DNA from: Ktedonobacteria bacterium
GTDB lineage: Bacteria; Chloroflexota; Ktedonobacteria; Ktedonobacterales; JACDGC01
DNA length: 41,704 nucleotides
NCBI GenBank assembly: GCA_027459705.1
Contig: DAIDHM010000006.1
Location: forward strand, 1-41,704
Direction: 5' to 3'
The translations under genes and the position numbers were made by a program. Positions 7,919 to 19,203 of the stretch are shown here, in pieces (the stretch's first letter is position 1; the number at the start of each line of letters is the position of its first letter). Below the pieces are notes generated by a model. That model was not told the DNA's origin. It did no database searches and was given only the letters and a program-made list of their open reading frames with translations.

Positions 7919-9223
7919 TTACTCGATCCAGAGCCCGGTCATATACGCGATAATGAAGAGTCCCTGGAGTAACCATCCCCCATTGACCATCAGGCTATCC
8001 AGCCAGGACCTGGTCCTTGCCCAGCGAGCGGCTAACCAGAAGACGGGTAAGGCTTCGAGGAGATAGCGTGCGGCCGAAGGTAAGACATACGGCAAACCGG
8101 GATCGTTAGCCGAAATCACCAGGTAAAGTAACCCCAGCATATACAGGGTAAATGCCACGGGGATGCGCCGCAGATTCGCTAGCGTCACTCCACCAAATAT
8201 GACGAGCACCGCGAGCGTAATAACCTGGAGGGCCCGATCACTTGAGAGCAACGGTGTACCGGGAAACAGCCGCCTGATGAGTTCGAACCCCGTATACCAT
8301 GGCGTCCAGTTCGCATGGTGCCAGTAGGTGTGTTCGACTTGTAAAAAAACCACAGGATTATTGAAGCGTCGCCAGAGAAAGAGCATATAGAGACCGATTG
8401 CCAGCGGCACCGCGCTCACTACCATGAGCGCGCCAGGGATATCCGCGATTCTGATTCGTTGGCGCCATGTACCCGCACGCCAGGCATCGCGGTCCCACCA
8501 GCCATGTTGGCGACCATATTCCCACGCCAGCGGGAGGATCAGAATGACGGCGGTGATACGGGTCAGGCCAGCGAGGAAAGCCATGAGTGCCGCCGCGCGC
8601 CACGCGCCTCGGCGCATAAAAAAGAGCGAGAAAGCCAGTAGCGCGATCAAGAGGCCTTCGCTATACGGCGCGGTAATGAAAAACGCCCACGGATAAGCAA
8701 ACACGATGCGTAAAAGGCGCAGGCCGCCTGCCGTTTCCTGTTCTTCTTGAGCCGCGAAGACCGCGATGCCCACGCAGGTGCCCAGGGCGATGAGATTAGA
8801 CGCAATCAGCGCTGCCGCGATTGCCTGTGACCCACCCAAAAGCAGATTCACAGCGGCGATGCAGAGCGGGTAGAGTGGAAAAAAAGCCGTTGAAGTCGCG
8901 GTTGTATAGCCCTGCGATGCCTGAAGATACCAGGGGCCGTCCCAAATAAACCAGATGTTCCAGAATGCCGGACTGTTCAATGGTTCGTGTTTGAGTACGG
9001 TTATCAGAAAAAAGGTAAAAAACGCATAGCCTAGCCGGGTGACCACCCAAAAAATCAAGGCTTGCAGCATGACGGATCGCCAATCGATCGGGGTCTGCCG
9101 CGCTGGTTGATCCTGATGTGAGGCCGCGGACGAAAATGCTGGCAGACGATGTAGGGTCACTGGCAACGTATCGTGATAGGCATGAGCAGCGAATGGCGGC
9201 TGATCGCTTTCCAATCGATGCAT
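7919..9223 (-). CDS. PIG-V/Gpi18-like membrane mannosyltransferase family protein
   Basis: 434 residues, about ten hydrophobic segments. After the first membrane segment comes a loop with WDGPWYLQASQGY and then FFPLYP, the acidic and aromatic pattern of GT-C type glycosyltransferases related to PIG-V/Gpi18. Such enzymes use a polyprenyl-phosphate sugar donor and act on the outer face of the membrane. The first ~50 residues are polar. The ATG at 9223 is directly preceded by GAGAAAGG, an unusually tight spacing, so an internal start before the first membrane segment is possible. A strong promoter lies at 9320-9348. Substrate and acceptor are unknown. Confidence 0.85.
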   Translation of the reverse strand: MHRLESDQPPFAAHAYHDTLPVTLHRLPAFSSAASHQDQPARQTPIDWRSVMLQALIFWVVTRLGYAFFTFFLITVLKHEPLNSPAFWNIWFIWDGPWYLQASQGYTTATSTAFFPLYPLCIAAVNLLLGGSQAIAAALIASNLIALGTCVGIAVFAAQEEQETAGGLRLLRIVFAYPWAFFITAPYSEGLLIALLAFSLFFMRRGAWRAAALMAFLAGLTRITAVILILPLAWEYGRQHGWWDRDAWRAGTWRQRIRIADIPGALMVVSAVPLAIGLYMLFLWRRFNNPVVFLQVEHTYWHHANWTPWYTGFELIRRLFPGTPLLSSDRALQVITLAVLVIFGGVTLANLRRIPVAFTLYMLGLLYLVISANDPGLPYVLPSAARYLLEALPVFWLAARWARTRSWLDSLMVNGGWLLQGLFIIAYMTGLWIE

Positions 9224-9393: not shown

Positions 9394-10959
9394 TTATACC
9401 GCGTTGTCGGCGGCCTTGGCGGCCTGCCATAAGGCAACCTGCGCATCGCGATCCAGTTCCTCGAAGTTTGCGCCTTGAGTCAAAGCCAGTTGTTCCATCA
9501 ACACAAAGCGGCGTCGAAATTTCTCATTGGCGCCGCGCAAAGCCACTTCAGCATCAATCTCCAGCCGACGCGCGAGGGCCACGACCGTGAAGAGGAGATC
9601 GCCGAGTTCGTCCACGCGTTCTGCCTGTGTCTGAGCCGCCTGCACTTCGGCGATCTCCTCCGCGGCTTTCGCCAACCAATCGTCAATTGTTGGCCAATCG
9701 AATCCAGCTTTTACCGCGCGCCGCTGCATCTGATGGGCGGCGGCGAGCGCGGCCATGTGCCGCGGCGTGGATTTCAGGCGGCTTTCAAAGGTCGGAGACG
9801 CGGGCGATGCTGAGGTCCGTTCGGTTCGTTTGATCTCTTCCCAGTTGCGCACTACCTGCTCGGCGCCATCGACCGTCACGTCGCCAAAGACATGCGGGTG
9901 GCGCCTGATGAGTTTGCGAGTGATCGACTCGATGACATCGCCCAGGCTGAAAGCTTCTTCCATCTGGGCAATTTCGGCATGCAAATAGACCTGCAGGAGA
10001 AGATCTCCCAGTTCTTCCGCCAGATGTTCAGGGTCGTCGGCGAATTCTTCAATGGCGTCGGCCACTTCCGCCGCCTCTTCCAACACATAGGGGAGGAGTG
10101 AGCGATGGGTCTGTTCGCGATCCCAGGGGCAGCCATCGGGAGCGCGCAAACGCGCGATGACAACGCGCAGGGCTTCAGGGGTGCGCGCAATTCGTAAAGA
10201 ACGTTCTGGAATCGCTGGCACATAGAGGCTCGTCAGGTGGTCAGGAAACTCGCCATGATCGATCGTACTGAGCAATTGCGTCTGTGTAGCTTCTTCAGGC
10301 AGCCCTGCGGCACGAATCAGGATCACTTCCGTATCGGCGGGATAGACCTCGAGAAGGGCTAATTTGGCGGCGCTCGCCATCCGGCGGTTGAAGACCTGGG
10401 TCACGATGATGGGATGTCGCGTGGTCAAGATCCCTGCGACTTGCTGTGGCGCCAATCCAGCCAGTTCGGTCGCATCGATGATCTGTAGACCTTGCTCGAT
10501 GGGATCTAAAGCGAGCGCCTCGCAGATAGGTTCAATAAACGAAAGACCGGCGACAATTTGGGTTGTGACACCACGATCTAAAGCGAGCTTCTGCAGAATC
10601 CGCACGGAAGTCTCACCGACCAGCGGATGACCAGGCACCGCATAGATCAGATCTGTGGACTGAGCTGATTGATCCAACGTGTCCGGGCGTTGTGCCATAT
10701 CTAGCAAGCGATGAGCCATTTGCACATACAGACTCTCCCAATCTTCCGCTTGCTCGTAGAGCTCATCAAAGGAAACGAGCGAAAGGTCAGGGCGCAACGT
10801 GCGCAACGCATCAACTGTAGGATGACGTAGCGTGCGGAAGATCATGTTGTTGCTGGCGAGGATCAGTTGCTGCGCGGCGATGGTCACATCTTCCCACGCG
10901 CCCGGGCCCAGTCCCACGATGATGATGCGCTTGACCGCGGGAGCTTGCTGGTGTGTCAT
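9394..10959 (-). CDS. mazG: YabN-type tetrapyrrole methylase/MazG nucleotide pyrophosphohydrolase
   Basis: 521 residues with two parts. Residues ~1-235 are a SAM-dependent tetrapyrrole (corrin/porphyrin) methylase-like domain starting with IIIVGLGPG and containing YAVPGHPLVGE. Residues ~262-515 hold MazG: PDGCPWDREQTH near 273-284, the metal-binding helix LEEAAEVADAIEE, then ELGDLLLQV, and a second MazG half with EEIAEVQAA and ELGDLLFTVVALARR. MazG hydrolyses NTPs to NMP and PPi and clears aberrant nucleotides. The two-domain form is that of Bacillus YabN. It is 33 bases downstream of the PpiC lipoprotein gene and very probably cotranscribed with it. Confidence 0.95.
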   Translation of the reverse strand: MTHQQAPAVKRIIIVGLGPGAWEDVTIAAQQLILASNNMIFRTLRHPTVDALRTLRPDLSLVSFDELYEQAEDWESLYVQMAHRLLDMAQRPDTLDQSAQSTDLIYAVPGHPLVGETSVRILQKLALDRGVTTQIVAGLSFIEPICEALALDPIEQGLQIIDATELAGLAPQQVAGILTTRHPIIVTQVFNRRMASAAKLALLEVYPADTEVILIRAAGLPEEATQTQLLSTIDHGEFPDHLTSLYVPAIPERSLRIARTPEALRVVIARLRAPDGCPWDREQTHRSLLPYVLEEAAEVADAIEEFADDPEHLAEELGDLLLQVYLHAEIAQMEEAFSLGDVIESITRKLIRRHPHVFGDVTVDGAEQVVRNWEEIKRTERTSASPASPTFESRLKSTPRHMAALAAAHQMQRRAVKAGFDWPTIDDWLAKAAEEIAEVQAAQTQAERVDELGDLLFTVVALARRLEIDAEVALRGANEKFRRRFVLMEQLALTQGANFEELDRDAQVALWQAAKAADNAV

Positions 10960-10992: not shown

Positions 10993-11967
10993 CTAGCCTG
11001 AAATGTTGATGTGGGGAACTCCACACGCCTGCCCGCTCGTATTGCCGCACCAATCGACATGAATCGAGATATGCGCGGCGTCGAGCAGCGAGTAAGTGAC
11101 ATAATTAATAGCTGCGCTGAGCACTGTTAAGGACCCTTGAATGACAGGTACGGTATTATCCAGAGTCGAAAGAGTCTGTGAGCTGATGCTCTCGACTCTC
11201 ACCAGGGTCCACCCAAACTCCGGGGTCTGGACAACTGCAATCGCGTCGGGTTTGGGGGTCTGTGGCGCGAAGATGACTTTATCGATTGCGCTCGGGAGGA
11301 TGCCGGGGGGAAGCGCGCCGATATCGCCGCCCTGGGCATGTGCCGGGTCAGTCGACTGTTTGGTAGCTAGTGTGGTCCAATCAGCGCCTGCCTGCACCTG
11401 TTTCTCCAGATCAAGTGCCATTGCTTTCGTTGGCACAGAGATGATCTGGACCCGCGCGATCGGCACACTTTGCGTGGTCAGAAATGTATTGCCATAGATG
11501 CGCTGGATGACCAGGTAGCGATAGGATTCGGGCGTGAGAATATTTTGCTGCACGAGCGGCGCATATTGCACTTTCAGTTGCACAAAGTCAGACTGGGTCT
11601 GTGATGTAATCTGACTATCGAGGGTCGCGAGTGGTACGGTCAGTTTTTTCTGGGCAATAAGCGATAGTAATTGTTGTTTCCAGAGAATGTTGGTCATCAA
11701 GATCGTCAGGGCCTGCGCCTGCGCATTGACAAGATCCGCGCGGCCGGTCGGCGTTTGCCAGGTGGGGAGACTATTTTGTAAGCCGTCGACGGCATAGAGC
11801 AAACGCGTCGCCTTCAAATACTGGTCCATCGTGATAGTCTGCCCATTGACCGTTGCCGCGACATTCACTTGCGCAGGGCTAGAGCATCCCGCCAGCATAG
11901 TACCCAGCAGGAGGATCACTACGCCTACCCAGGCACCCTTACGTCCCACATGTTCCACTCGCCCCAT
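10993..11967 (-). CDS. SurA/PpiC-like peptidyl-prolyl isomerase lipoprotein
   Basis: 324 residues from ATG 11967, which has GAGGGG nine bases upstream; ATG at 11976 abuts the same site and is less likely. The N-terminus is a lipoprotein signal: basic start, hydrophobic GVVILLLGTM, lipobox LAGC with Cys28. A SurA-like N-terminal helical region (TVNGQTITMDQYLKA) covers about 35-160. A parvulin/PpiC domain lies at about 170-270 (DWTTLATKQSTDPAHAQGG, IGALPPG, GWTLVRVESI). Such proteins fold exported polypeptides outside the membrane, like PrsA of Gram-positives. The C-terminus carries a Cys pair (DWCGNTSGQACG). It heads a probable operon with the mazG-like gene. Confidence 0.9.
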   Translation of the reverse strand: MGRVEHVGRKGAWVGVVILLLGTMLAGCSSPAQVNVAATVNGQTITMDQYLKATRLLYAVDGLQNSLPTWQTPTGRADLVNAQAQALTILMTNILWKQQLLSLIAQKKLTVPLATLDSQITSQTQSDFVQLKVQYAPLVQQNILTPESYRYLVIQRIYGNTFLTTQSVPIARVQIISVPTKAMALDLEKQVQAGADWTTLATKQSTDPAHAQGGDIGALPPGILPSAIDKVIFAPQTPKPDAIAVVQTPEFGWTLVRVESISSQTLSTLDNTVPVIQGSLTVLSAAINYVTYSLLDAAHISIHVDWCGNTSGQACGVPHINISG

Positions 11968-12011
11968 GACACCCATCCCCTCACGACATCAGCTTTCATG
12001 GTTCCTTCTGG

Positions 12012-12072: not shown

Positions 12073-13479
12073 TCACCCAGCCGCCCAGACCTCACAGATC
12101 CCATCCACACGCGCAATGGCGAGGGTGGGTTGATGACCTGGTTGCGCGAAACTCAATGTCGCAACGGGCGATGGGAGCTCCCAACTCTGAATGCGTTGCC
12201 CGGTTGCCGTGGCCCACAGGACGATATGGGTGCCATCCGGTGGGGCGAGCGCCAGGAGCGCGCCATCTGGTGAGAGGGCCGCGATGGTTTCCTGTGGCAA
12301 AGGGCCAGTCAAAAGATCGACATGTTTCCCATAACGCACATCGTACAACCGCATGGCGCGGTCTTCCAGGTGTAATGCAACGATGAATCCCAGTGCAGAG
12401 ACGGCGACCGGGTAGCCTAAAGCGCGGGCGGGAAAGACGATTTGGCCGGCTGGTTGTGGTTGTGTGGCCGCGACGCGCCCATGAGATTTTAAGCTCCAGA
12501 GCCTTAAGATACTGGCCTGTTGTACCGCGCCGCCGCCTGGTCCGGTCGCGAAGGTGAAGAGCAGTTCGCCATCCCAGGAGAGCGAGCGAAGATGAATGCG
12601 GGGGCCACGAGTGCCGGGAACATGCGGCTCCTCACAGCGGAGGGGTATCGACCAGAGCGGCGAAATCATCGCTGAAGTTTCCAGAGGACGTGTTAAGACA
12701 TCGGTACCAAAATGGCCGGTATCGGTCCATTTGAAGGGGTCGCTCTCCGCCAGAGAGAGCGGGGCCGCGGGGAGCGCCATGCGCGCGAAAGCGGGTGTGT
12801 CGTAGAGCACCCCATCGATAGCGCCGCTTGGCCCATTGATCGTGCTCTTCCAGATGGTTTGGCGAGTGCCAACGTTCCAAATTTGGACACCATGGTAGAG
12901 GCCCCAGGCCATCGCAAAGCGACCATTGGGTGAGAGGCGCAGATCGCGAACGACCCCAGGCTGAGCCATCTCGGATTGCAGTCGAAAACTCGCGACGCGT
13001 TGATGTGCTTGCAAGCTCCACAGTTCGATATGTCCATCACTGGTGGCAACGCCGAGCATGTCGCCTTGTTGCGCGAAAGCCAGCGCGCTCATCGGGCCAT
13101 CTAATCCCTCGATGGTCCGGTAGAGTCGGAGGGGACCCGCCTCAGACCGTGACTGACGCACCACTTGCCCGGTACTTCCCGGTCGGGGTCGGGAGGGTGT
13201 GGGTCGGTAGACCAGATCAGGTGCCGACGAAACTTGCGGCGCGAAACCATAGTGCAGATCATACTCGCGTCGCCGCGAGGGATCGCTCAATGTGGCATAG
13301 GCCGCATTCAAGCGTTTCATCATATCAACCCCGCGCTCACCAGCGATATCTGGATGATACTTCCGCGCAAGCTGGCGATATGCCTGGCGAATTTGATCTT
13401 CAGTCGCATTCACACCGAGCCCTAACGTTCCATAGTAATCGGCGTCATCGCCTGAGGAATTGCGGTTTGGAATGGCCAC
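12073..13479 (-). CDS. DnaJ-domain protein with WD40-like repeats
   Basis: 468 residues from GTG, with GGAGAG about eight bases upstream. Residues ~14-77 are a J domain (DYYGTLGLGVNATEDQIRQA) with the HPD motif at 42-44 that stimulates DnaK ATPase. No Gly/Phe region or zinc domain follows. A Pro/Arg-rich linker leads to residues ~115-468, which show WD40-type blades (DGHIELWSLQ, VQIWNVGTR, LRLWSLKSHG, MRLYDVRYGK, HIVLWATATG, ICEVWAAG), probably a single beta propeller. It should recruit a DnaK-type chaperone to targets held by the propeller. It lies 245 bases downstream of a pseudokinase gene on the same strand. J-WD40 fusions are uncommon, and no target can be named. Confidence 0.9.
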   Translation of the reverse strand: MAIPNRNSSGDDADYYGTLGLGVNATEDQIRQAYRQLARKYHPDIAGERGVDMMKRLNAAYATLSDPSRRREYDLHYGFAPQVSSAPDLVYRPTPSRPRPGSTGQVVRQSRSEAGPLRLYRTIEGLDGPMSALAFAQQGDMLGVATSDGHIELWSLQAHQRVASFRLQSEMAQPGVVRDLRLSPNGRFAMAWGLYHGVQIWNVGTRQTIWKSTINGPSGAIDGVLYDTPAFARMALPAAPLSLAESDPFKWTDTGHFGTDVLTRPLETSAMISPLWSIPLRCEEPHVPGTRGPRIHLRSLSWDGELLFTFATGPGGGAVQQASILRLWSLKSHGRVAATQPQPAGQIVFPARALGYPVAVSALGFIVALHLEDRAMRLYDVRYGKHVDLLTGPLPQETIAALSPDGALLALAPPDGTHIVLWATATGQRIQSWELPSPVATLSFAQPGHQPTLAIARVDGICEVWAAG

Positions 13480-13651
13480 CCTTCGCTCTCCATTGCTGAC
13501 CTTTGATCACGCTGGGCTACCGCCTGGCGCTCACCTACGACTACGCTGATCCGCACTCGACTTTGCCTGACTGTATGAGCACTTGTCCGGAACGAAGCTC
13601 TCCTTGACTTCACCTCTGGCTGGTAGATTGGAATCCCTCCGGCTGATCATC

Positions 13652-13680
13652 ATTGTACAAGGGTTTGCAAGCAGCAAGAG
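13652..13680 (-). promoter_or_regulatory. Weak promoter candidate for the DnaJ-WD40 gene
   Basis: Minus strand: TACAAT at 13652-13657 with CTCTTG 17 bases upstream (13675-13680). The -10 is good but the -35 is poor. It lies in the 245-base gap after the pseudokinase gene. Confidence 0.25.
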
Positions 13681-13724
13681 CTTCGCATCAAGATTGAGCC
13701 GCAAAATCTCTCCACTATGCCATA

Positions 13725-16412
13725 TCAAGATGGTATATCGAGCGCGTGAATAAGTGTTAACATTGGTTGCCCGCTTACTGGATGGTTGATCGGCAAGATC
13801 ATGATATCCGCTACGAAGGGATCTTCGTGCAGCGACATGCCATATGCCGTGCGGAACTGAAATGTCAGACGATCCGCCATGCCCTGAGGTGTGGGTCGGA
13901 GTGCGGTTACGGTCAAAGTCGCTTCGCTCAATCCACCTTCCGCGGGTAACTGTAAGGCGAGACGTTTGATGGGCAGATAAAAAGCCTCGGAATGATACTC
14001 CACTTCGATGATGGCCGTGCTATCTCCAGTATTTTTTCCAGTTGTGTGGCTGGTCGGCCACCGCTGGACGCGTACCAGAATCGAATAGACATGCTTGGGA
14101 AACATCTGGCGCGGCAACACGACCGTACCTGTCGCTGTGACGGTGTGAGCCTGGGGTTGTTGCAAGGCACCCCGCAGTCTGCCTAAAATTTGCTGCAATG
14201 GACGGGAAGGGGTGCGCGTCGTGGGGATGTTCGTTGCCGATACATTGGCAATGATAGTCTGGTCAGCTGGTTCAGCTGACTCACTCGACCCGGTGGCTTC
14301 CGGGGCGATGTTGGCAGATTCGGACGATGCTCTGTCCTCATCCCGTGGGGTCGGGTTTTCCGTGCTGGCGTCAGGTTTCCCGGTATTCGCAAGCGATCCA
14401 AACTGCAACACCCGCGATGGCGGAAGACTGGATTCAGGGACGGGAGTAGCAGTGGTGGGATCAACAGGTCGCTCATCCGACAACCACATTGCCAGTGTTG
14501 ATCCAGCAGAGGTCTGCTCGGTATCCGTGACTGGCTTTGCCGCGCGATCATCAGTGAAACCCTCGTGTGCCGTCGCTAGAGGGTCCCATGTATCGGCAGT
14601 GGCCGAATCAGCGTGCCCAGCTTCGGGGGCAATTTCGGGTTCGCTCGCAGGATCATGCGACGACGCCTCGGCTTGCTCCGCATCCTCCTTGTTATGGGGG
14701 TGGCCCACAAGTATGAATCCTGTCCCCGCCATGGCCGCGCCCAGCGCCCCCGCGAGCAGCGCCGCATCGCGGGGTGGAGCTGGTGGCGCGGTGTAGGCTA
14801 CTCCAGGATCATCGAAGGGAGCGATAGACTCAGGTGTGGCCGCCGAGCCTGGATCATCGAATGGTGTGACCTGAATGGCACTGTGTGCATCCGTTGCGCT
14901 GGATGCCAGGGTCTCCGCGCTAGTCTGACCGATAACGCTGGGAGGGGAAGATTCACCTGCGTCCTCGGCAGTGAGGTCATGGGTGGGCAGCCCGCTTATA
15001 TCGTCGCTGTTTTGCGACTCATCCAGCGATTCGTAATCGAAAAATTCTCCTTGCGTCAATGCTGATTGACGATCGGCATCGAAATCTGTCGCTGAGAGGA
15101 GTCGGAGCGTGAAGAATGTAATGGGGAGACGCTCCTCACCTTCTGGATCAGTCGGCGTTGCGGCGAGGTTATTGGTGGGTTCGGCCTTCTGCCAGTCAAG
15201 CAAACTCAAGGGCGCATCTTCAGAAGCAGGTGAATCAGCTGGTGTGGCTACCGTGGCGGAGTCTGGATCTCCCGCGGCAGTGGTGTTCGTAGCGAGTAGG
15301 GCATTATCAGACACCAGGGCAGGCGCTGCATCCGCGCTCGAGGCGGCGGCCTCTGTGTGAGCGCCGGGGGCAGGCACGGCGTCGTCCACCCCATCGTAAG
15401 CTTTGTCTGTCAGGCGTACGACCGGTCGTGGAGCGGTGGAACTTAATCCTGCCTCCAAGGCATCCACATCGAGCGGCGCAACGGGATCATGATGCAGGAG
15501 ATCTTCGCGCGTCATGACCAGGGTCGGCGGTTCTTCGAGTCGCTCATCATTCGTCAAGATAGGACCGGGAGATCCCGTATTCCCGCGTTCGACTGGTAAA
15601 GCGGCAACCAGCGCCTCGCGGAGCATGGCAATGGTCGGCCAGCGATCGGCGGGATTTTCCGCCAGTCCGCGCATGATGGCATGCACGAGCTCGCGCGACA
15701 GGTCGGGCCGCAGATCCGCCAGCATCTCTTCGCGTGCGGGGTCATCCGGATGCCAGAGCCGACGCGTGAGAAGATAATGTAAGGAAGCGCAGAGCCCATA
15801 GACATCGGAGAGCGTATCGCATTGGTTTTTGCGTAATTCCGGAGCGACGGCTCCTCGCGGCAAGGCGGAAGCCAGTGCCGCGGGCGAGACCAGACCAAGC
15901 GGGATTGCAAATCCCAGGAGTTGCAAGCGATCTTCAGCCGTGACGAAGAGCGATCCGGGGCTGAGATCGCCGATCATCCATTCCGGAAGCCTGGAAGCCA
16001 GGAAAATGATGCCGTCCGCCGCCTGGACCATCCAGCGAATCGCAGAGGTGGGCAGGATCGGTGCGTGTTTATTGCGCATAATTTGTTCGATGGTCTGACC
16101 ACCGCCGATAGCCATCACAAAGAACAGGGTTTCATTCTCGACAAAGATGACCTGTATTGGCGTGGTCATCGTATGTGAATACTCGAGCAATGGCGCCGCA
16201 CGGTTCAGCGAGATAGTTGCCTGTATTTGACCCGGTGTCGAAAACTCGATCAGCGTCATAACCTGTTGGGAAGCCACCTCACGTACACGATACAAAGCCA
16301 GGGCTGGTCCAACCGCGAGCAAAAAATCAATGCGAAATCGCCCCGTGTAGAGGAGAGTGCCAGGGGCAAGTTTTCCAATGGGTCGCAATTCAGCGCCGGG
16401 TGGTGTGAGCAT
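13725..16412 (-). CDS. Large protein with degenerate protein-kinase domain (pseudokinase)
   Basis: 895 residues from ATG 16412, with GAAAGG seven bases upstream; ATG 16427 lacks a site. Residues ~15-275 follow the eukaryote-like kinase fold, but the VAIK Lys position reads VMTLIEF and the DFG motif reads LGFA (~166-169). The catalytic-loop Asp survives (IGDLSPGSLFV, Asp149), as do APE-like VAPEL (189-193), SDVYGL (Asp203) and the C-lobe LAENPADRWPT. This predicts weak or absent phosphotransfer. A ~480-residue acidic, Ala/Ser/Thr/Pro-rich region follows, with a weak hydrophobic stretch at ~548-569. The last ~130 residues look beta-rich (PRQMFPKHVYSILVRVQRWP) and match no family I know. It may scaffold with the DnaJ-WD40 neighbour. 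Confidence 0.85.
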   Translation of the reverse strand: MLTPPGAELRPIGKLAPGTLLYTGRFRIDFLLAVGPALALYRVREVASQQVMTLIEFSTPGQIQATISLNRAAPLLEYSHTMTTPIQVIFVENETLFFVMAIGGGQTIEQIMRNKHAPILPTSAIRWMVQAADGIIFLASRLPEWMIGDLSPGSLFVTAEDRLQLLGFAIPLGLVSPAALASALPRGAVAPELRKNQCDTLSDVYGLCASLHYLLTRRLWHPDDPAREEMLADLRPDLSRELVHAIMRGLAENPADRWPTIAMLREALVAALPVERGNTGSPGPILTNDERLEEPPTLVMTREDLLHHDPVAPLDVDALEAGLSSTAPRPVVRLTDKAYDGVDDAVPAPGAHTEAAASSADAAPALVSDNALLATNTTAAGDPDSATVATPADSPASEDAPLSLLDWQKAEPTNNLAATPTDPEGEERLPITFFTLRLLSATDFDADRQSALTQGEFFDYESLDESQNSDDISGLPTHDLTAEDAGESSPPSVIGQTSAETLASSATDAHSAIQVTPFDDPGSAATPESIAPFDDPGVAYTAPPAPPRDAALLAGALGAAMAGTGFILVGHPHNKEDAEQAEASSHDPASEPEIAPEAGHADSATADTWDPLATAHEGFTDDRAAKPVTDTEQTSAGSTLAMWLSDERPVDPTTATPVPESSLPPSRVLQFGSLANTGKPDASTENPTPRDEDRASSESANIAPEATGSSESAEPADQTIIANVSATNIPTTRTPSRPLQQILGRLRGALQQPQAHTVTATGTVVLPRQMFPKHVYSILVRVQRWPTSHTTGKNTGDSTAIIEVEYHSEAFYLPIKRLALQLPAEGGLSEATLTVTALRPTPQGMADRLTFQFRTAYGMSLHEDPFVADIMILPINHPVSGQPMLTLIHALDIPS

Positions 16413-16427
16413 ATATGAACCTTTCAT

Positions 16428-16890
16428 TGGCTCTGGTACGTCATATTGGCTCCCTGACGATGCACCAGCTATTTGTCTCTCTGTGAATTGGCATTCTCAA
16501 CCGTCATTGTATCCTTTATCGCAAAAAATGGGCAACAACAGGCCGGTTCGGCTACTCTCAGCGATCAACAAAAGAAATTTATACTATCTAACGTCAGTAT
16601 CGTTTAAGCCGCGAGGTCAATCATGATCGCGCGTCTCTCAGCATGGCGCCCGCCACCATAGATGGTGTTGGCGAGGCGTCGGGGAGCCACGGGCGGCCGC
16701 CTCTACCGCGGAGCGGGTTCCCGCGCGGATGTTTCCGTGCGACTCCCACGAAATACCAGGCATTCGGCAGGCACTGCTGCTGAAGCCTCTCATCACTGCT
16801 GGCCAAACCGGTCCCCCGCGCTCACCGTATTCCGTGATATAGTAGTTTTGATCTGTTGTTTGTCTGCTCTCTGTTTCCGTGGAGGTAGGA
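16428..16890. other. Divergent intergenic region, pseudokinase / STAND ATPase
   Basis: This gap holds the promoter candidate of the pseudokinase (16506-16535) in its left half. The right half (about 16630-16840) is much more GC-rich, like the ATPase gene that follows. No convincing promoter for the ATPase, no gene and no strong repeat was seen. Confidence 0.5.
16506..16535 (-). promoter_or_regulatory. Putative sigma70 promoter for the pseudokinase gene
   Basis: Minus strand: TTGCCC at 16530-16535, 18-base spacer, TACAAT at 16506-16511. Transcription would start near 16499, about 87 bases before the ATG at 16412. Confidence 0.45.
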
Positions 16891-19203
16891 ATGCCTGTAG
16901 AGGTCGTTGAAGCACCCCCGCGCGTCGCGTCGCCTTCCCCCAGCCGCGAGCGGCGCATCCAGTTGTTCATTCGCCGCAGTTATACCTTTCTGTTTCTGTT
17001 TCTGGGGGGCAATATTGTCGCCTCCGTCCTGCAGGCCGCCATCGCGACCGGCACGTGGCCCAGTCTCGCCGATCTCACCAGCACATATCCCGTGCAACTC
17101 GCCCTGCGTCATCCGCTCATCTTCTGGCCGCTCGCCGCGCTCCTCCTCGTCCTGGCCATTGTCGGCCCGGTTGCCGATCGTCGGTTGAGTAACCTCGAAC
17201 AACAGGAAGCCCGGGAACAGATGCAAGCGACCGCACGGTCGGTGGTACGGGAAGAGGGCATGCGGATCCTCAGTGCCGATGTCATCGCGCACGCCCAGGC
17301 CGCGGCGGCGGCGCTCATCCAGGAGCAGGTGACCGCGCAACAAGCGGGCATCGCCACCACCGCCCCCTTCGACCTCGCGCTCCTCCCGCGCTCCGCCACC
17401 TTCACTGGCCGCGCCGCGGAACAGCAGCAGGTGCTGGAGGCACTGCGCACGCTGCGGATCGCCGTGATTCGTGGCATCGGCGGCATCGGCAAGACCACAC
17501 TGGCCGCCGAAGTCGCCGCCATACTCGCCAGTGAGCGCAGTTATCCGGATGGGATCGCCGTCATCAATTGCCAGAATCCGCCCAATGGCACTGCTCAGGC
17601 AGCCGACCTGCTGCGCGCCACGCTGAGCCGCTTCGGCACCGTCCCCCCGGATGCCACCGCCGGGGATCTGCCGACCCTCGCCTATCGGCTGCTCGGTGGC
17701 AAACACACACTCATCATCCTGGATAATGTCGAACCGACACTGATGGTCGGCGACCTGGTCCGGCCATTGCGCGAAGCGGGAGCCACGCTGCTGTTGACCG
17801 CGCGGCAGGATCCCCCCGCCAGCAGTGTCCCACCCTCCGCGATCATTGCGCTTGAAGCCCTCCCGCTGCCGGAGGCGCGCGACCTCTTCCGCGCCCTGTT
17901 TCCCCTCCCCGCGACCGACCCCCAGATCGACGCGGTCGTTGAAGCGCTGGGGCGGCACACGCTGGCGATCACCCTCATGGCGCCGTATGCCCGCGACGCC
18001 CATCCCGACCTCGCGGCGCTTGCCAGCGAGTTGGGTCGGAACCCCCGTCTGGCTTTCGGGGTTCATGGCGATGAGCCAGGACGCGACCTGGCCCCGGTCT
18101 TCGCGCTGAGCGTGGATGCGCTGCCACCCACCACGCAGCGGCTCTTTGCCCTGCTGGGGATGGGCGCCACGAACACCATGGGACGGCGCGCTGTATTGGC
18201 CTGGGCGGAAGGTCTGGGAATCCCGGCGGCGGAACGTGAAGAAGGCATCCGCCTGCTGGGACGACGCGGGCTTGTCACCCTCAATGTCGATCTCACCGGA
18301 GAGGAAACGAGCGATCGCGAACGCGTGACCCTGCATCCATTGCTGCGCGCCTATGCCGCCGGGCGGTTCGCCGCGCTGTCAGAGACCGACAGGACGACGG
18401 CTCACCATAGCCTGATCACCTGGTACGCGGACTATTGCAACACGGCCGCCGACGCGGCGCGTTCGCTCGATGAAGCCAACATCCAGGGCGCGCTGGATCT
18501 GGCCATCACGGCGGGCGATGATGATGCCACTGCCCGCATCTGCAACGGGATGCGGGGCTACTGGCGGGACCGCTCGCGAGTCGTAGCTGGTCTGCACTAT
18601 CTCCCTCTGGGAGCCGCGGCGGCGCAGCGTATCGCGGCAGCGAGCCATTCGCGCGCCGATCGGCTCCGCGCGGCGGATATCAACATCTACTATGGCCACA
18701 TGCTCCAGGCCACCGGCAAGCTACAGGAAGCCGAAGCAATCTATCGCCAGGATCTCGACGTGCGGAGGGAGCTGGGCGATCGGCAGGGCGAGGGGGCCGA
18801 CTTGAGCACGCTGGGCCAGATCGCCCGGGACCGGGGCCAGCTGGACGCCGCCGAGGGGTACCTGCAGCAGGCGTTAGAGATTGACCGGGAGGTGCAGGAC
18901 CGGCAGGGCGAGGGGGTGGAATTGAGCACGCTGGGTCAGATCGCCCAGGCCCGGGGCCAGCTGGACGCCGCCGAGGCATATTATCGACAAGGATTAAGCG
19001 CTCTCCTTGCTGCACAGGATGCTCGTAACAGTGCTGGCGTACGTGTTGCTCTCGCTGAGTTACTACTCGCCCACCAGCGCGGCGCGCCGGGCGAGGGCTG
19101 CCAGCTGCTCGCGCAAGCTGCCGCCGCGTACGACGCGATGGGCATTCCGGGCGGTGATCGCGCGCGGGAACTGATGAGGGAATTTGGGTGCGCGGCGGGC
19201 TAG
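16891..19203 (+). CDS. Membrane-anchored NB-ARC/STAND ATPase with C-terminal TPRs
   Basis: 770 residues from ATG 16891, with GGAGG at 16881-16885. Two hydrophobic segments (about 31-53 and 75-95) predict membrane anchoring, followed by a helical, Ala/Gln-rich linker (100-155). The STAND module begins at FTGRAAEQ (171), with Walker A GIGGIGKTT (195-203), Walker B LIILDNVE (274-281), sensor LLLTARQ (300-306) and a winged-helix region. TPR-like repeats fill about 590-740. STAND proteins are ATP-driven switches that oligomerise on ligand sensing by the repeats; many bacterial members are regulators or antiphage sensors. No separate effector domain is visible, so the membrane segments could be the effector. 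GC is clearly above the neighbours, suggesting transfer. Confidence 0.92.
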   Translation: MPVEVVEAPPRVASPSPSRERRIQLFIRRSYTFLFLFLGGNIVASVLQAAIATGTWPSLADLTSTYPVQLALRHPLIFWPLAALLLVLAIVGPVADRRLSNLEQQEAREQMQATARSVVREEGMRILSADVIAHAQAAAAALIQEQVTAQQAGIATTAPFDLALLPRSATFTGRAAEQQQVLEALRTLRIAVIRGIGGIGKTTLAAEVAAILASERSYPDGIAVINCQNPPNGTAQAADLLRATLSRFGTVPPDATAGDLPTLAYRLLGGKHTLIILDNVEPTLMVGDLVRPLREAGATLLLTARQDPPASSVPPSAIIALEALPLPEARDLFRALFPLPATDPQIDAVVEALGRHTLAITLMAPYARDAHPDLAALASELGRNPRLAFGVHGDEPGRDLAPVFALSVDALPPTTQRLFALLGMGATNTMGRRAVLAWAEGLGIPAAEREEGIRLLGRRGLVTLNVDLTGEETSDRERVTLHPLLRAYAAGRFAALSETDRTTAHHSLITWYADYCNTAADAARSLDEANIQGALDLAITAGDDDATARICNGMRGYWRDRSRVVAGLHYLPLGAAAAQRIAAASHSRADRLRAADINIYYGHMLQATGKLQEAEAIYRQDLDVRRELGDRQGEGADLSTLGQIARDRGQLDAAEGYLQQALEIDREVQDRQGEGVELSTLGQIAQARGQLDAAEAYYRQGLSALLAAQDARNSAGVRVALAELLLAHQRGAPGEGCQLLAQAAAAYDAMGIPGGDRARELMREFGCAAG
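18778..19017 (+). repeat. Tandem 120-bp duplication encoding two TPRs
   Basis: Two head-to-tail 120-base units, 18778-18897 and 18898-19017, each encode one 40-residue TPR (unit core LSTLGQIA..RGQLDAAE). I count seven differences in the first 78 aligned bases; the last 42 diverge more. The near identity at DNA level indicates recent duplication or gene conversion inside the sensor part of the STAND protein. Confidence 0.85.

Follow-up and report, generated by a model that had tools for sequence, protein, structure and literature searches.

Do a kinase-like gene and its neighbor, which encodes a J domain fused to a WD40-type region, form a two-gene system? The question is raised by a 41,704-nucleotide stretch of DNA from a soil-type Ktedonobacteria bacterium (GenBank assembly GCA_027459705.1, contig DAIDHM010000006.1, positions 1 to 41,704; hereafter the window). 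The two genes, here called KIN and DnaJ-WD40, are adjoining open reading frames (ORFs) with KIN upstream. Judged by the genomes sampled, they are not an obligate two-gene system; in the family of the window they are probably coupled and used together. A first-pass annotation of the window had reported two same-strand genes, and both ORFs were found on the minus strand. It let KIN begin at 16412, which is the second ATG (residue 6) of an ORF that stands but reaches 16427. The features discussed are:

13725..16427, minus strand: KIN (pseudokinase domain, acidic linker and C-terminal domain), ORF of 900 residues with relatives
15588..16385, minus strand: pseudokinase domain of KIN, about residues 15-280, from BLAST against kinases of the same genome and alignments
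14217..15587, minus strand: acidic Ala/Ser/Thr/Pro-rich linker, about residues 281-737 (about 457 residues), from sequence composition and alignment
14706..14762, minus strand: Ala/Gly-rich hydrophobic segment inside the linker, residues 556-574, mean hydropathy 1.95
13728..14216, minus strand: C-terminal domain of KIN, residues 738-900 (163 residues), class-restricted, from profile searches
13480..13724, no strand: intergenic gap between KIN and DnaJ-WD40, 245 bp
12073..13479, minus strand: DnaJ-WD40 (J domain and WD40-type region), ORF of 468 residues with a GTG start
13258..13440, minus strand: J domain, residues 14-74, HPD at 42-44, from the DnaJ profile and alignments
12076..13146, minus strand: WD40-type region, about residues 112-468, from WD40/propeller matches and alignments

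Among 47 Ktedonobacteria genomes we distinguish the family of the window (first family, f1), a second family (f2), a third family (f4) and the genome G007 (f3). In each of the five first-family genomes where it can be tested (that of the window, G002, G003, G004 and G005), KIN and DnaJ-WD40 lie side by side in the same orientation; these genomes represent three genera. In the sixth, G001, a contig end cuts inside KIN. DnaJ-WD40 identity between these genera is 26-52%, and no gene flanking the pair is common to different genera. The other cross-genus matches were one 23% match between non-flanking ORFs and one antisense ORF inside KIN. Since the two genes are neighbors in the first family and not beyond it, the neighborhood test gives a split answer: the genes of the possible two-gene system of the first-pass annotation are neighbors in five of five testable first-family genomes, with flanks that differ between genera, but in none of 28 second-family genomes, and the third family does without KIN.

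KIN scores 13.8 bits against Pfam Pkinase (cut-off 31.7), whereas BLAST against kinases of the same genome (best E value 3.6e-20, 28% identity) establishes kinase homology over the domain. One KIN relative reaches 7.7e-12 with Pfam Pkinase and a second-family relative 1e-18 with NCBIfam PknB_PASTA_kin. The catalytic motifs were read from an alignment of 34 KIN sequences (28 from the second family and six from the first, the window included) and two canonical kinases from the genome of the window; L122, in which an FHA domain replaces the kinase, and L123, a C-terminal fragment only, had been removed. In KIN the β3 lysine is replaced by Ile60, HRD reads I-G-D (Gly153-Asp154), the catalytic-loop lysine and asparagine are Ser156 and Ser159, and DFG has become GFA (Gly172-Phe173-Ala174). 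None of the 30 readable sequences has the β3 lysine, and the catalytic-loop lysine, the asparagine and the DFG aspartate are each missing from all 34. Of the 34 sequences, 19 still have an aspartate at the HRD position, all six of the first family among them, and 15 of 26 readable second-family sequences carry arginine at the β3 position. With the catalytic residues gone and the APE glutamate, the subdomain IX aspartate and the subdomain XI arginine each kept in 34/34, the fold is conserved and catalysis is not. By these alignments KIN is a conserved pseudokinase whose kinase is long dead, and the loss is not local to the window. The absence of the VAIK lysine and the DFG aspartate, which the first-pass annotation had noticed, thus extends across the readable relatives. 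No shifted lysine or aspartate rebuilds the motifs, and the 34-row alignment rules out a genuine kinase with displaced motifs.

The linker of KIN is acidic as annotated (76 Asp/Glu vs 17 Lys/Arg in residues 301-735), but comprises about 457 residues rather than about 480. A hydrophobic Ala/Gly-rich segment occurs in all five first-family KIN proteins with linker sequence (1.76-2.17), and up to three such segments, in L075, were seen among the linkers of the window and L073-L076. The 27 second-family proteins measured contain no strongly hydrophobic linker segment (maximum 1.19). Residues 556-574 of KIN, on which the first-pass annotation is silent, are a possible membrane segment. The C-terminus had been called unrecognised, and rightly so for its last 163 residues: 13 members scanned with Pfam gave no convincing match, and a profile of the domain (A9) retrieved one hit among PDB sequences, with an E value of 1 that we take as chance. 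A9 was built from thirteen rows after a profile of five first-family members had found weaker relatives. Applied to the 47 genomes (every candidate scored except in G046, where 83 of 97 were), it detects the domain in 35, one copy each (in G019 as two overlapping pieces): 5/6 of the first family, 29/29 of the second, G007, and 0/11 of the third. A sample of 400 Chloroflexota genomes includes 353 outside the Ktedonobacteria, and none of these has the domain among the best candidates scored (at most nine per genome).

Relatives of KIN are long open frames, mostly of 620-1148 residues. A zinc-ribbon motif precedes the dead kinase in 26 of 28 second-family sequences, the other two of which look truncated, and in none of the four first-family proteins with an N-terminus. 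In G007 (L122, 5502-6938), an FHA domain, a zinc ribbon and a proline-rich linker are fused to the KIN-type C-terminal domain, an arrangement that points to a signalling or assembly module in this C-terminal domain. A ClpB/ClpC-type AAA gene lies close to the fusion gene. Of 30 KIN loci of the second family (G007 counted in), 24 have complex I genes nearby and 21 a Na/Ca exchanger gene; both were named with Pfam at one locus, L124. Two relatives, at L123 4775-7053 (G040) and L128 3693-5957 (G019), are apparently interrupted by a split or a frameshift close to the C-terminal domain, through assembly error or decay. In a kinase-domain tree of 66 rows, first-family KIN forms one clade and second-family KIN another. 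A single clade for both is not rejected (p-AU 0.368), a test that long branches weaken. The tree places two lone ORFs of pseudokinase type from the genome of the window (L003) beside first-family KIN (97/87); they are adjacent (G000:C107, 11677-12192 and 12702-13424), and by a simple check for motifs they contain neither VAIK nor HRD nor DFG. For a common descent of the two KIN branches, the shared and otherwise unknown C-terminal domain is a stronger argument than the tree.

The partner gene is better defined at its N-terminus than at its C-terminus. In the Pfam scan the J domain matches DnaJ at 1.4e-18, and its HPD is intact; two alignments of 16 and 19 rows, drawn from the copies in 43 genomes, have this motif in 16/16 and 19/19. 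The J domain of the annotated fusion is firm. Its second part is a WD40-type region and putative propeller, with weak to moderate matches at residues 119-217 and 418-452 and degenerate sequence in between; PF00400 reaches 19.8 bits against a cut-off of 27. Apart from the J domain and WD40/propeller families, the scan gave a few chance-level hits; neither the zinc finger nor the C-terminal family of DnaJ was among its matches. We take DnaJ-WD40 to be a lineage-specific J-domain protein of class C type. Such proteins resemble it in an N-terminal J domain with HPD; its second module is of WD40 type. DnaK is encoded at two loci of the genome, and in both cases another J-protein is encoded on the same contig, which makes DnaJ-WD40 an additional J-protein.

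DnaJ-WD40, full-length or in recognisable pieces, occurs in 43 of 47 Ktedonobacteria genomes (f1 5/6, f2 28/29, f3 0/1, f4 10/11) and is split or partial in four of the second family (G017, G019, G029, G035). With the best four candidates at most considered per genome, the full-length combination of J domain and WD40 region is found only in Ktedonobacteria among the 400 Chloroflexota genomes; elsewhere, the listed matches span little beyond the J domain. Searching named genomes with the WD40 part returned four loci: two are the first family's own contigs, one encodes a planctomycete kinase-WD40 protein (L108), by eye devoid of a J domain, and one is a short match (L109). The contig L106 (JAJPKG010000471.1), titled 'Proteobacteria bacterium', matches the first-family contig G002:C116, and its title is probably wrong. 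The second-family DnaJ-WD40 gene is accompanied by an HhH-GPD glycosylase gene at 15 of 18 loci and by a GroEL-like gene, recognised by eye, at 12 of 18. In the third family (L082, L083, L085 and others), a small receiver-like protein is encoded after it at 5 loci and a transketolase-like gene comes after it at 5.

How could the two proteins work together? The reading to which we give roughly even chances is that KIN is a non-catalytic scaffold and DnaJ-WD40 a class C-type co-chaperone, which in the first family are co-expressed and used together. A tether with a conserved part at either end is the layout expected of a scaffold. The dead kinase domain would dock proteins, and the C-terminal domain would be a second module for docking or assembly. 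Between them, the long acidic linker would act as a flexible tether, which in the first family may be held at the membrane by its hydrophobic segment. The J domain would call DnaK and the propeller would select the client. In the first family, DnaJ-WD40 might then remodel a complex built by KIN, or KIN might position DnaJ-WD40, presumably through physical contact. The DnaK-recruiting scaffold suggested in the first-pass annotation would be plausible and would fit an intact HPD and a genome that encodes DnaK. A bolder version, in which a class-wide, one-per-genome pseudokinase hub with a new C-terminal domain of its own aims a dedicated J-WD40 co-chaperone, and hence DnaK, at its complex in the first family, seems to us doubtful. 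Judging by the FHA fusion in G007, such a hub could be driven by phosphothreonine instead.

Several observations weigh against the scaffold and co-chaperone reading. All 28 second-family genomes with both genes have them unlinked, 0.17 to 4.2 Mb apart on the same contig in 12 and on different contigs in 16 (derived by hand from coordinates). KIN is absent from all 11 third-family genomes, ten of which have DnaJ-WD40. The 245-bp gap could accommodate a promoter of its own for DnaJ-WD40; a promoter and terminator scan of 13480..13724 found no terminator-like site, no clear conserved promoter and nothing decisive. The kinase tree gives no clear grouping and no clear separation of the two KIN branches. 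Two AlphaFold2 models from three alignment rows each are of low confidence (pLDDT 45.5 and 33.1) and leave the fold and the domain contacts unsupported, as well as the beta-rich C-terminus of the first-pass annotation, whose sole basis is the model with a pLDDT of 45.5. The missing linkage in the second family also favors the possible, though less probable, alternative that the two genes are functionally unrelated and that their adjacency arose once in the first-family ancestor and is still unbroken. Presence and absence of the genes do not track each other in the third family or G007, and the gap is looser than operon-tight. However, the pair persists across first-family genera at the DnaJ-WD40 divergence given above, with flanks that are not shared, which speaks for a coupling. 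That both proteins always act together across the class as an obligate complex, the second family having merely lost the linkage, would agree with the occurrence of both genes in 28/29 second-family and 5/6 first-family genomes. We nevertheless consider it improbable, as DnaJ-WD40 occurs without KIN in ten of 11 third-family genomes and G007, with all candidates scored, possesses the C-terminal domain (with FHA) but lacks DnaJ-WD40.

Two further alternatives concern KIN itself. It might retain a non-kinase catalysis on the kinase fold, for which SelO (AMPylation) and SidJ (glutamylation) are precedents in a 2025 pseudokinase review (PMC12599244). The HRD-position aspartate of all first-family and some second-family sequences and the β3 arginine of many second-family ones would fit, but no nucleotide- or metal-binding residue is kept throughout, and the loss of the DFG aspartate and the catalytic asparagine in 34/34 makes such an activity quite unlikely. 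Decay of the gene could account for a Pfam Pkinase score far under the cut-off, for the C-terminal domain of G040 in a separate frame of 247 residues and for the broken frame in G019. The long frames of the relatives, the single copy per genome and the structural residues kept in every sequence make decay the least probable explanation of all. Because both genes occur class-wide and in single copy, a role in anti-phage defence was set aside. PADLOC matches KIN only in its kinase part (best PD-T4-6, 7.5e-13, residues 75-278) and DnaJ-WD40 not at all.

The same review names the bacterial pseudokinase families ActPs1-3, GLW, CP1, DYD and DLHK and describes dead bacterial kinases able to recruit or scaffold, MviN and EssB (PMC12599244); by analogy with these, KIN may recruit or scaffold as well. 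As far as the review describes them, MviN of Mycobacterium tuberculosis (ActPs3) with its FHA partner FhaA has likewise lost the catalytic motifs and acts as a recruiting scaffold. The FHA theme recurs in G007, although there the FHA domain replaces the kinase instead of binding it. The pseudokinase of MviN forms one domain of a transmembrane peptidoglycan-synthesis protein of actinobacteria, whereas KIN has no such part (no Pfam match to the MviN membrane domain) and a C-terminal domain of its own; its hydrophobic segment lies far along the linker and in the first family only. EssB/YukC of type VII secretion, as reported there, resembles KIN as a scaffold of kinase fold whose motifs are degraded and whose domain is followed by a single hydrophobic segment, but the downstream domain of KIN differs and second-family KIN lacks the segment. 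No secretion-system genes were recognised among the KIN neighbors scanned with Pfam. ActPs2, described with a β3 arginine, asparagine at the HRD aspartate and a DFG deletion, does not fit KIN (Ile, Asp and GFA), nor the second family, which often has the β3 arginine but asparagine at the HRD aspartate position in just 2/28. Neither do GLW, in which GLW replaces HRD, and CP1, a COG3899 fusion: KIN has IGD at HRD and no ATPase match. With PknB-like Hanks-type Ser/Thr kinases KIN shares the fold and a probable ancestry; unlike them, it has lost the catalytic residues, has no PASTA match and ends in an unrecognised domain.

The KIN family apparently represents undescribed bacterial pseudokinases of Ktedonobacteria. 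The main text of the review (PMC12599244) contains none of the words Chloroflexi, Chloroflexota and Ktedonobacter. Titles and abstract beginnings, from a literature that leaves most subscription journals uncovered, gave no description of a KIN-type pseudokinase, a bacterial J-WD40 protein, a Ktedonobacter kinase or a pseudokinase-FHA protein. Bacterial pseudokinases are little studied, and this family, with one member per genome through most of Ktedonobacteria, is defined and testable. Its C-terminal domain, unknown to the searched libraries, swaps its partner between a dead kinase and FHA, and the lineages offer a natural experiment: KIN is linked to the J-protein in the first family, apart from it in the second and missing in the third.

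The pair is flanked in the window by the following genes, the first three downstream of DnaJ-WD40 on the same strand and the last upstream of KIN:

10993-11976, minus strand: PPIC-type isomerase gene
9394-10959, minus strand: YabN/MazG gene
7919-9223, minus strand: gene without a Pfam family
16879-19203, divergent from KIN: NB-ARC/TPR protein gene

The last of these, of STAND type, lies in a region with a G+C content of 0.67-0.68, above that of the surrounding DNA.

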